A program made the position numbers and the translations under genes. The notes beneath the pieces were generated by a model. That model was given only the letters and a program-made list of their open reading frames with translations. It did no database searches and was not told where the DNA came from. Shown piece by piece: positions 59,685 through 64,000 of a DNA stretch of 64,000 nucleotides. Origin of the DNA: an uncultured Pseudomonadota bacterium (lineage in GTDB: Bacteria > Pseudomonadota > Gammaproteobacteria > Steroidobacterales > Steroidobacteraceae). The stretch spans positions 1-64,000 of the forward strand of contig CAILZL010000015.1 of NCBI GenBank assembly GCA_903838705.1. The letters are read 5' to 3'. Numbering within the stretch: position 1 is the first letter of the stretch; every line of letters starts with the position of its first letter.

Positions 59685-60800
59685 TTATTCCTGTACTTCA
59701 ATGACAGGACGTTCCGGACGGATTGACTGGCCTTTATTGAAGGCACGCAGCTGGAAGATATAGGTCAGCACCTGTGCCACTGCGGTATACAGCGAAGCAG
59801 GAATTTCCTGACCGATATCCACACTGCGATACAGCACACGCGCCAGTGGCGGCGCTTCAAAAATAGGTACTTTGTTTTCAGTGGCGATCTCACGGATACG
59901 GGCAGCGACCAGATCGGTACCCTTGGCAATGACAATCGGTGCACGATTGCGCTGGTCGTCATAACGCAATGCCACGGCGAAGTGCGTCGGGTTGGTGATG
60001 ATCACATCCGCCTTGGGCACATCAGCCATCATGCGCTTGCGGGCCAGATCCTGTTGCATGCGACGGATCTTGCCTTTGACTTCAGGAGAACCGTCGCTCT
60101 CCTTCATTTCTTTCTTGATTTCCTCACGTGACATACGCAACTGTTTTGCGTGCTGCCACAGCTGAATGGGCACATCAATCGCGGCAATCAGCAACATGCC
60201 ACAAGCCAGCATCAATAGTGCATTGACACATAGATGGCCCGCCGTCTGGATAGAACTGGACAAGGTGTTGTTACCCATCGAAAGCAGATCAGCTGCATCC
60301 TTGCGTAATACTTTGATCGCGATGGCGGCAACTAATACAAACTTGAGAATGGACTTGCACAACTCAATCAGTCCATTGGCAGATACCATGCGCTGCAATC
60401 CCGCCAGGGGATTCAGCCGCGAGAATTTCGGTGCCAAAGCTTCTGTACTGAAGTTCCAGCCACTCAAAGTCATGGGAGCAAGCACCGCCGCAAGGAATCC
60501 TGCTGCAAGCACCGGCATTACCACCATAAAACCGGCAAAAGCTGCGTCCCCCAGAGCCGGCAGCATGGTCTCGATATCCATGCCGGGTGCAAACTTGAGT
60601 GACAGACTGGAACGCATCAGGTTTGCAAATCCGGAAACCATTCTTTCGCCACACATGGACAGGGCAACACAGCTGAACAATGTGACTGCTGCGGCATTCA
60701 GGTCCCTCGAACGTGGTACTTCACCCTTGCGCCTCGCTTCCTCGAGGCGCTTGGGCGTGGCACGTTCGGTACGTTCTTCCTGGTCTGGTTGATCAGCCAT
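59685..60800 (-). CDS. flhB: Flagellar export switch protein FlhB
   Basis: A 371-residue FlhB. It begins ERTERATPKRLEEARRKGEVPRSRDL, has four membrane helices and the autocleavage site NPTH at 270-273, followed by FAVALRYD. The C-terminal domain ends PASLYTAVAQVLTYIFQL. It controls the hook-to-filament export switch with FliK. It lies between fliR and flhA. Confidence 0.97.
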   Translation of the reverse strand: MADQPDQEERTERATPKRLEEARRKGEVPRSRDLNAAAVTLFSCVALSMCGERMVSGFANLMRSSLSLKFAPGMDIETMLPALGDAAFAGFMVVMPVLAAGFLAAVLAPMTLSGWNFSTEALAPKFSRLNPLAGLQRMVSANGLIELCKSILKFVLVAAIAIKVLRKDAADLLSMGNNTLSSSIQTAGHLCVNALLMLACGMLLIAAIDVPIQLWQHAKQLRMSREEIKKEMKESDGSPEVKGKIRRMQQDLARKRMMADVPKADVIITNPTHFAVALRYDDQRNRAPIVIAKGTDLVAARIREIATENKVPIFEAPPLARVLYRSVDIGQEIPASLYTAVAQVLTYIFQLRAFNKGQSIRPERPVIEVQE

Positions 60801-60818: not shown

Positions 60819-61601
60819 TTATCCCTGATTACTGACCAGCGAGGTGATCATCATCATTGCTGCATCGACCAGATGCATGAAACCATTCTGTACCGATGAC
60901 AGCCCCAGCAATATAACGATCAGTCCGAGCGCAAGAGCAGCCGGGAAGCCCACAGCAAACAGATTCATGGTAGGTGCAGCGCGACTCATGACGCCGAAAC
61001 CGAAGTTGACAATCAACATGGCCGCCAGCCCGGGCAAGGCCAGCATCAAGGCCCCTGAAAACAGGGTGCCGCCGAAATTAACCAGCATCCACAAACCATC
61101 ATGTCCCAGGCCCGTCATGCCGATGGGCAGTAAGCTGAAACTCTGGGTAATCGACTCAATCAACAGCAGGTGACCATTCAGTGCCAGAGAGGTGAGCGTC
61201 ACCATGATTGTGTAGAACTGACCCAGCACGGGTGTACTGGTACCGTGCAAGGGATCAACGCTCATGGCAAAAGACAGACCCATGCTGTTAGCCAGCAACT
61301 GACCCGCCATCTCCACTGCATCAAAAATGATCTGCAGGGTAAAGCCCATCGCTGCACCAATCAGCATCTCCTGCAAGGTGACAACCAGACTGCCACAAGA
61401 AAACAGCTCGACCTTTGCAGGTACGGCAATCAGCGGAGCAAGCAGCACAGTAAGGGCCCCGGCAACAACCAGACGCACCCGATGCGGAATCAGTTTTGAA
61501 CCGAATACCGGCGCGAGCATCAGGCACGCTGCAATGCGGACGAATGGCCAGAAGTACGTACTGATCCAGAGTGAAAACTGTGCGGCTGAAACATTGACCA
61601 T
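60819..61601 (-). CDS. fliR: Flagellar export protein FliR
   Basis: A 260-residue polytopic membrane protein with WISTYFWPFVRIAACLMLAPVFGSKLIPHRVRL at the start and QLLANSMGLSFAMSVDPLHGTSTPVLGQFYTIM, characteristic of FliR. It is a component of the export gate with FliP and FliQ. Five bases after fliQ. Confidence 0.96.
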   Translation of the reverse strand: MVNVSAAQFSLWISTYFWPFVRIAACLMLAPVFGSKLIPHRVRLVVAGALTVLLAPLIAVPAKVELFSCGSLVVTLQEMLIGAAMGFTLQIIFDAVEMAGQLLANSMGLSFAMSVDPLHGTSTPVLGQFYTIMVTLTSLALNGHLLLIESITQSFSLLPIGMTGLGHDGLWMLVNFGGTLFSGALMLALPGLAAMLIVNFGFGVMSRAAPTMNLFAVGFPAALALGLIVILLGLSSVQNGFMHLVDAAMMMITSLVSNQG

Positions 61602-61606
61602 GACAA

Positions 61607-61876
61607 TCAGCCCAGCATGCCGGGAATGCTCATGAATAATTCACGTGTGTAGCCGGTAATCAGCTGCAACATCCATGGACCGGCAATCAACAGCGCCAGA
61701 GCCACACCCACCAGTTTTGGAATAAAAGACAGCGTGGATTCATTGATCTGGGTGGCCGCCTGGAAAATGCCTATCACCAGACCAATGATCAGTGCCGATA
61801 ACAGCAATGGCATGGCCAGCAGCAAGGTCACCTGCAAAGCGTGGCGCGCCAGTGACATGATTGTTTCTGGTGTCAT
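61607..61876 (-). CDS. fliQ: Flagellar export protein FliQ
   Basis: An 89-residue protein with two membrane helices. It starts MTPETIMSLARHALQVTLLLAMPLLLSALIIGLVIGIFQAATQINE, which is typical. ATG 61876 is used because FliQ homologues begin there and are near 89 residues; the longer upstream frame lies in fliP's tail. Confidence 0.95.
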   Translation of the reverse strand: MTPETIMSLARHALQVTLLLAMPLLLSALIIGLVIGIFQAATQINESTLSFIPKLVGVALALLIAGPWMLQLITGYTRELFMSIPGMLG

Positions 61877-61887
61877 GGGCTCAATTC

Positions 61888-62652
61888 CTATCGGTAAAAG
61901 CTTGATGCAAGGGTACTGACTACCAGCGTCCATCCATCCACCAGCACAAACAACATGATCTTGAATGGCAGGGAGATCATCATCGGTGACAGCATCATCA
62001 TGCCCATCGACATCAGTACACTGGCCACCACCAGGTCGATGATCACGAACGGGATAAAGATCATGAAACCGATTTGGAATGCAGTCTTGAGTTCACTGGT
62101 CACAAAGGCCGGTACCAGAATGCGCAAGGGGACTTCTTCGGGTGTGTTATAGGCCTGCTGTCCCGCAATGCGTACAAAGGTCGCGATATCAGATTCGCGG
62201 GTCTGTTCCAGCATGAAGGATTTGAGTGGCGCCACCCCTTTTTCGAGTGCAACTGTTCCTTCCAGAGTACCTGCCATATAAGGCTGTACTGCATCAGTAT
62301 TGATACGATCAATCACCGGCCCCATCACGAACAGAGTAAGGAACAGGGCCAGACCGATCAGCACCTGATTAGGTGGCGAAGTACCCGCACCAATCGCCTG
62401 TCGGAGCAGGGTCAGCACGATCACGATACGAGTGAACGAAGTCATCATCAGTACGATGGCCGGCAGGAAAGTGATTGCCGTCATCAGGATAAGAACCTGG
62501 AGAGTCAGCGAATAGGACTGGCCCTGTCCGGTTCCCTGCACAGTGATTGCAGGCATCCCGCTGGCCGCCCATACATCACTGACATTCAATACCAGCAGCA
62601 ACAGCACACAAGCCAATTGCAGCAGCGATCTGCAAGTCATCCGGCGCATCAT
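61888..62652 (-). CDS. fliP: Flagellar export protein FliP
   Basis: A 254-residue protein with a cleavable N-terminal signal, then [55 protein letters not shown] and [49 protein letters not shown]. These are FliP hallmarks. It is the main pore-forming gate subunit. Overlaps fliO by four bases. Confidence 0.97.
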
Positions 62653-63122
62653 GACATCCCCATGCTGCGCTTGAGCAGTGCCTTGAATGAAGGTGTTTCC
62701 TGTACATCACTTGCAGCAACACCCTCGTTACTGGCTTCAGCCTGATCATCAGCCTGATCATCAGCCAGCTCAGTCAGCAGACTGACCTGCCCGGGTGCAA
62801 CGCCGAGCAGCAGACGACGACCTTGTACCCGAATCAGCACAGCCCGCTCTTTCGCACCAAGACTCACTCCCTGGACTACTTCAATGCTGGCCTGACCGCG
62901 CTGATGAAAGAATCTGAATTTACGCATCGCCCAGGCTGCCGCAAAAACCAGCATCAGCACGACCAGCATGGCAATGCCGACATGAGTGATACCCGCAGCA
63001 CCTGAACTCGCCACAGCAGCCGATTTATCCGGGTCAGCAAATTTTCCAGCACCGGAAACCGTCTGTGAAAACCCGGGATTGATGGCGAGCAATCCGGCAA
63101 TAATCGTTACGACTCGCATCAT
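62649..63122 (-). CDS. fliO: Flagellar assembly protein FliO
   Basis: A 157-residue protein with an N-terminal signal-like segment and one membrane helix ([23 protein letters not shown]). The soluble part has [37 protein letters not shown], the FliO signature. It helps FliP complex assembly. Directly abuts the fliN stop. Confidence 0.93.
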
Positions 63123-63485
63123 TTACTTCAACTTGAGAATGCGTTCTTGTGGACTGATGACATCGGTAAGACGGATACCGAACTTCTCGTTCACAACCAC
63201 AACTTCACCATGCGCAATGAGCGTGCCATTGATGTAGACATCCAGCGGCTCACCTGCAGCCCGTTCCAGCTCTACAACTGAGCCCTGATTGAGTTGCAGC
63301 AGATTCCGAATCGGAATGCGGGTACGCCCGATCTCCATGGACAAAGTGACCGGCACATCCAGAATGACATCCAGATTGACATCATGTCCGGTGCTATCAG
63401 CAGCGTTATCGCGCCGTCCCTCAAGCAGGGAGTCAGCACGCATATTTTCCATCTGTGCTACCAGAGCCTCTTCATTACTACTCAT
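63123..63485 (-). CDS. fliN: Flagellar motor switch protein FliN
   Basis: A 120-residue SpoA-domain protein: DVNLDVILDVPVTLSMEIGRTRIPIRNLLQLNQGSVVELERAAGEPLDVYINGTLIAHGEVVVVNEKFGIRLTDVISPQER. Length fits FliN and not FliM (about 330). It forms the C-ring base. ATG 63485 is used, with AGGTG upstream; the track's two extra codons need TTG. Only about 100 bases separate it from fliL, leaving no room for fliM. Confidence 0.95.
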   Translation of the reverse strand: MSSNEEALVAQMENMRADSLLEGRRDNAADSTGHDVNLDVILDVPVTLSMEIGRTRIPIRNLLQLNQGSVVELERAAGEPLDVYINGTLIAHGEVVVVNEKFGIRLTDVISPQERILKLK

Positions 63486-63585
63486 GATCAATACACCTTC
63501 AAATGCTCAGCGATATGTGTGTCGGCAGAATCTGTCTGCGGCAATTCAGAGAAAAATCAGAACTGACTTCCAGATCCGTCATTCC

Positions 63586-64000
63586 TTACTGCATTACGAA
63601 GGAGGTGAAATAAACTGCCTCAATTTTTTCAGGCTCTTTTCCTTCTGATTTCATCACAGCACGCACTGCTTCCAGTGCCTTGACACGCAGCTGTTCCTTG
63701 CCTTCGGCAGTAGATAGCGACTCGGCTGTTTGTTGACCGAACAAGGTCAGCAAGGCATCGCGGATTGCAGGGCTGTTACTCTGCATGGCCTTTTCAACGA
63801 ATTCGTCACGGGTCATGGCTTGCACGGTGACCTGCAGGAACTTGGCCGGACCACCGGCAGGAAAGTTCACAACGAATGGGGGTTCAAAGCTGACATAGAC
63901 TGCAGCAGCTTTGGCTTTTTCTTCACCTTCCTTCTTCGCGTCTCCATGTTCCGCCGATCCCGCTGCATCCTTGCTGGCCGCCTGCTTGCTCAACATGACA
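63586..64000 (-). CDS. fliL: Flagellar basal body protein FliL (5' end outside window)
   Basis: The visible 138 residues are the periplasmic domain of FliL: AAAVYVSFEPPFVVNF, then LQVTVQAMTRDEFVEKAM and the conserved end MKSEGKEPEKIEAVYFTSFVMQ. The N-terminal membrane helix is not present, and the frame is open at the window edge, so the true start lies further on. The Lys/Glu/Ala-rich linker EHGDAKKEGEEKAKAAA precedes the domain. It stabilises the stator-basal body contact. Confidence 0.92.
   Translation of the reverse strand, partial: VMLSKQAASKDAAGSAEHGDAKKEGEEKAKAAAVYVSFEPPFVVNFPAGGPAKFLQVTVQAMTRDEFVEKAMQSNSPAIRDALLTLFGQQTAESLSTAEGKEQLRVKALEAVRAVMKSEGKEPEKIEAVYFTSFVMQ

Follow-up and report, generated by a model that had tools for sequence, protein, structure and literature searches.

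A fli cluster without fliM and a chemotaxis-linked fliG-fliM-fliN module: probable xenologous replacement of flagellar switch genes in a Steroidobacteraceae genome

The fliL–fliN junction and its flagellar cluster

The window, by which we mean the whole 64,000-base stretch of DNA analysed here, comprises bases 1–64000 of contig C15 (98 kb) in a draft genome of 2.74 Mb and 43 contigs (G000). Near its end lies part of a flagellar gene cluster encoded on the minus strand. The open reading frame (ORF) of fliL (63586–64000) runs past the window (the whole gene, at L004 3587–4114, encodes 175 aa), and the sequence and ORFs place its TAA stop codon at 63588–63586. The next gene, fliN, starts with an ATG at 63485 that has GAAGGTG just ahead of it; this ATG is favoured over a TTG at 63491 because the FliN N-terminus is conserved (MSSNEEA in G000 and G001, MPINEEA in G002, the latter two being genomes of the same genus). 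The spacer between the two genes, in which relatives carry fliM, extends from 63585 to 63486 on the minus strand and is exactly 100 bases long, in agreement with an earlier note that had placed the fliN start about 100 bases past the fliL stop. It contains the fliN ribosome-binding site and no remnant of fliM.

The fliN gene at this site (63123–63485, minus strand) encodes the native FliN, FliN1 (120 aa; Pfam FliMN_C, 2.5e-26). It is followed on the same strand by fliO (62649–63122), fliP (61888–62652), fliQ (61607–61876), fliR (60819–61601), and flhB (59685–60800), and then by flhA, flhF, flhG, fliA, and a motor-stator pair. The names of the genes 3′ of fliN were assigned from order and similarity: from ORFs and order for fliO, fliP, fliR, and flhB, and from order and tblastn against relatives for fliQ. 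On the other side, C15 continues beyond the window with fliK, fliJ, fliI, fliH, fliG (encoding FliG1), fliF, and fliE; two sigma-54 activator genes and then flagellar filament genes lie past fliE. The cluster fliE-F-G-H-I-J-K-L-N-O-P-Q-R is therefore complete except for fliM, the sole missing gene, and the claim that fliM is missing from the fliL-fliM-fliN series holds throughout the fli cluster, with fliE to fliL all in place upstream.

The spacer also holds a 27-codon frame beginning MTDL (MTDLEVSSDFSLNCRRQILPTHISLSI; 63582–63499, minus strand), which the earlier note placed just where fliM would begin while remarking that it lacks the FliM motif LSQDEIDAL. The frame exists, but it begins 3 bases past the fliL stop rather than two, and it can be regarded neither as a remnant of fliM nor as marking the start of that gene. 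Against three FliM proteins, the encoded peptide does not outscore shuffles of itself, the DNA of the frame has no notable similarity to three fliM genes (values within those of shuffles), and in the sister genome G001, in which the fliL–fliN gap is 84 bases, the frame is not open. By these comparisons, it is a chance frame and not a gene.

An intact fliM within a chemotaxis locus

The earlier note had implied that a switch protein might be missing and had proposed searching the rest of the genome for it. A whole-genome search of G000 with PF02154 found one FliM (match at C4:163657–164232, E 3.4e-71), encoded by an intact gene for 337 aa at C4:163336–164349, which removes that worry. The protein has both expected domains (PF02154 at residues 40–231, E 1e-70; PF01052 at residues 252–321, E 5e-17), and its N-terminus, MNDGAVILGQDEIDALLHG, contains the EIDAL motif (given as LGQDEIDALLHG). 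This motif at the FliM N-terminus binds CheY-P, and FlhG in polar flagellates.

On C4, fliM belongs to a chemotaxis locus with the order fliG2-fliM-fliN2-STAS-cheA-cheW, continued by two receptor genes, cheW, cheR, cheB, and cheD; cheY-cheZ lie upstream of fliG2 in the opposite orientation. The gene fliM shares four bases with fliN2, the kind of overlap seen in co-translated genes. G000 encodes two FliG, one FliM, and two FliN proteins, all of them standard members of their families according to Pfam: FliG1 and FliG2 each have the three domains FliG_N, FliG_M, and FliG_C, and both FliN proteins have the SPOA domain PF01052 (FliN1, 2.5e-26; FliN2, 8.7e-22). The genome has a complete switch in an unusual layout.

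Switch proteins are needed before the late flagellar genes are expressed, so a late, sigma-28-type promoter ahead of the module would be a problem. Such a promoter was rejected, as no match was found in a 20-kb stretch of C4 with up to three mismatches. A sigma-54-like site, a motif defined by GG and GC elements at -24/-12 spacing, does lie upstream of fliG2, both in G000 (CGGCACGGCATTTGC, L003 5732–5718) and in G001 (CGGCACGCCATTTGC, L038 7126–7140). Five modules of another genus of the family, g21, have CGGCACGGTAATTGC, CGGCACGGAATTTGC, or GGGCACGGAAATTGC 92–106 bases ahead of the fliG match; in a sixth (L133), fliG directly follows cheB and no sigma-54-like site was found. The pattern was seen seven times in 4.8 kb, once at each of 7 loci, against about 0.15 expected by a rough count that assumes equal base frequencies; the loci are not all independent. 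In scans of whole loci with two mismatches, such sites are no commoner than in shuffles, or only slightly so, and the argument for sigma-54 hence rests on position and recurrence. Judged by this motif, the module would be under its own predicted sigma-54-type (early flagellar) promoter.

Between the sigma-54-like site and fliG2 there is a 78-codon ORF (L003:5434–5669; C4:165434–165669) whose ribosome-binding site looks plausible; it stops some 10 bases short of fliG2 and is absent from G001. A Pfam search of this ORF returned no match, and its reading as a FliF tail, suggested by eye from P..VA....W at its end, was rejected, a profile of 18 FliF tails giving 0.4 bits, below many shuffles.

Gene order and phylogeny among relatives

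Comparison with relatives, a further check proposed in the earlier note, found the same junction without fliM in G001 and the canonical one in G002; the genomes of this genus (g1) considered here are all drafts or MAGs. In G001, the fli cluster reads fliE-fliF-fliH...fliL-fliN, without fliG and without fliM, and another contig carries fliG-fliM-fliN2-STAS-cheA with divergent cheYZ, the che-linked FliG being the only FliG found. G002 has the canonical fliF-fliG-fliH and fliL-fliM-fliN, with no switch genes near STAS-cheA, and a third congener, G003, gave no flagellar switch matches. The canonical order prevails among the other family members examined. In a survey of 217 genomes of the family, 142 have FliM/FliN domains, mostly with two matches each, and the FliMN_C matches mostly correspond to one FliM and one FliN per genome. 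A different arrangement occurs in G012, in which fliG and fliN are in the fli cluster and fliM lies on a separate contig, accompanied only by a FliN2-like gene.

A split layout is also found in genus g21, of which seven genomes have matches (three or five each). The fliL–fliN junction lacks fliM in 7/7 flagellated genomes, the fliF–fliH junction lacks fliG wherever it was captured, and fliG-fliM-fliN lie beside cheY-cheZ on another contig in 6/7, followed by STAS-cheA where the contig continues. A single origin of the che-linked modules of the two genera is rejected by AU tests that force the che-linked copies together (FliM, p 1.3e-4; FliG, p 3.5e-6); on these trees, the g21 layout arose independently of that of g1.

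Some family members possess a second complete flagellar cluster, which is very divergent and belongs to a different type (L042 in G023:C31; L046 in G032:C4). G032 additionally has a long-branched FliM on its own (L045:8712–9689, G032:C5), no FliN lying next to it, and an isolated FliG on a different contig. In two relatives, fliN and fliO, which are usually adjacent, are 3–5 kb apart (L058:7479–10840; L059:3269–8628).

The switch genes fliM and fliG2 conflict with the tree of the export genes, the kind of disagreement by which xenologous replacement is recognized. In the concatenated tree of FliP, FliQ, FliR, FlhB, FliI, and FliF, G000 and G001 group together (100/100), separately from G012, DAHUYP, JABCZO, and JASHTF (100/100). 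In the FliM tree, G000 and G001 group with G012 (98/91), inside a clade with DAHUYP, JABCZO, JASHSK, and JASHTF (100/99) and away from G002; a FliM clade of G000, G001, and G002 is rejected (AU p 4.9e-5). In the FliG tree, FliG2 of G000 and G001 falls in this same clade (93/99), FliG1 of G000 groups with G002 (98/95), and uniting all FliG copies of the genus in one clade is rejected (AU p 0.0047). FliN2 of G000, G001, and G012 cluster together (99/99), and FliN1 of G000 and G001 pair separately (95/92), although FliN is short and its branches long, so the placement of FliN2 is soft. By these trees, the history of the genus is shared by the export genes, FliN1, and FliG1, whereas FliM and FliG2 side with another lineage within the family; the direction of fliM-fliN2 transfer between the G012-like and g1 lineages is not fixed by them. 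Compositional attraction is unlikely to lie behind the conflict, given the difference in G+C content between the donor clade (65–69%) and genus g1 (47–54%). The C4 module, at 51%, is like its host and keeps no compositional trace of transfer; a transfer would therefore be old.

Had fliG, fliM, and fliN already been duplicated in the ancestor of the family, different genera then keeping different copies and no transfer taking place, the coexistence of two FliG and two FliN proteins in G000 and the che-linked copies in two genera would be accommodated. We nevertheless regard such an ancient duplication as unlikely: both FliM types occur together in one main system in no sampled genome, the che-linked FliM and FliG of the two genera do not form one clade in the tests given above, and many parallel losses would be required in a family whose genomes mostly have one FliM and one FliN. 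For FliG1 and FliG2, a duplication within the lineage is rejected (AU p 0.0036). Still less credible is a simple relocation of the native fliM into the che operon. The earlier note had envisaged a deleted or a relocated gene, and the loss of native fliM from its site and the presence of an intact copy elsewhere, on C4, both stand; it is the movement of the native gene that fails, since the C4 FliM is placed away from its native counterpart in G002 and the module adds a further fliG and fliN to the native fliG1 and fliN1, which remain in the fli cluster, the phylogeny pointing to a xenolog that arrived with fliG2 and fliN2. A misassembly or collapsed repeat at 63486–63585, or a contaminant contig carrying fliM, might be feared in a draft of this kind but can be dismissed, as both the junction and the che-linked module recur in the independently assembled G001, the stated contamination is 0.2%, and the two loci agree in G+C.

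A proposed C-ring assembled from two loci and its known parallels

With good confidence, we interpret this organization as an old xenologous replacement by a transferred fliG-fliM-fliN module, in which native fliM was lost and the C-ring came to be assembled from two loci. An ancestor within the genus would have acquired fliG-fliM-fliN from a different lineage within its own gammaproteobacterial family, inserting them between cheYZ and STAS-cheA, under the predicted sigma-54-type promoter. The incoming FliM would then have taken over, native fliM being cleanly deleted from fliL-fliM-fliN. Native fliG1 would have been kept but accelerated in G000 and deleted in the sister species G001, and native FliN1 kept in the fli operon of both. 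The FliG1 of G000 is indeed accelerated (63 versus 16 private changes against G002 in a Tajima test), as expected if the replacement took over its role.

The resulting C-ring would combine FliM and FliG2 from the che-linked module with the FliN1 encoded in the fli operon and, probably, with FliN2. C-ring assembly requires FliM, and the C4 FliM, as the only copy, must be in the motor if the motor works; FliG2 must serve in G001, being the only FliG found there. FliM presumably works with FliG2, and both FliN proteins may be in the ring.

The two FliN proteins differ in the FliH-binding patch, formed by FliN residues 68, 93, 111, 113, and 118 in Escherichia coli numbering (PMC7505661, PMC6248999). 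In our alignment, FliN1 of G000 and G001 keeps V111, V113, and an aromatic residue at 118; FliN2 has A111 in both genomes and, in G000, M113 and C118. The che-linked FliN of g21 has M113, its fli-linked FliN having V or L there, and the conserved ERIRKLK-type tail is lost in the che-linked FliN of both groups. Position 93 is less telling, as the fli-linked FliN of G012 also departs from A. These residues suggest a C-ring with two kinds of FliN, in which FliN1 was retained to dock the FliH/FliI export ATPase. More tentatively, and we would not yet wager on it, labour in this mixed ring may be divided, with FliN1 docking the export ATPase and che-linked FliG-FliM-FliN2 forming a self-contained, exchangeable switching unit that entered the chemotaxis locus on at least two occasions in the family. 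If so, switch behaviour could evolve with the sensory system and not with the export apparatus.

FliG, FliM, and FliN contact one another as well as the other motor parts and are thus expected to co-evolve and to resist piecemeal transfer. Under the replacement proposed here, FliM was nonetheless swapped for a transferred copy, the export genes and one of the FliN proteins remaining native; in a second genus, the switch genes independently left the fli cluster for a place beside the chemotaxis genes. Such natural chimeric C-rings would offer a testbed for which contacts must match and for whether the binding of FliM and that of FliH are shared out between two FliN proteins. In the open-access literature, we found neither a fliG-fliM-fliN chemotaxis operon nor a displaced fliM described, and no account of a chemotaxis-locus fliG-fliM-fliN module replacing fliM in gammaproteobacteria, which is not proof of novelty.

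Compared with the canonical gammaproteobacterial fliEFGHIJK-LMNOPQR cluster of most relatives, the system is alike in the order, content, and sequence of all other genes but has no fliM between fliL and fliN, FliM coming from a fliG-fliM-fliN module in the chemotaxis locus. The Campylobacter jejuni C-ring also has one FliM and two FliN-type SPOA-domain proteins, FliY, encoded beside fliM, and FliN, encoded elsewhere (PMC6946799). That pair is thought to derive from duplication, whereas here both proteins are short FliNs, the fliM-linked one appears foreign, fliG is doubled too, and the division of labour is predicted from residues. Like Borrelia, in which one FliG serves flagellar synthesis and the other torque (reviewed in PMC7225975), G000 combines a single flagellar system with two FliG proteins; here, one would have been acquired by transfer, and the other, native and fast-evolving, has already disappeared from the sister species. 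Finally, transferred motility genes displace native ones in enterobacteria as well, through wholesale replacement of flagellar and chemotaxis genes (reviewed in PMC12826062), whereas in the lineage described here only switch proteins would have been replaced, the export apparatus and FliN1 remaining native.
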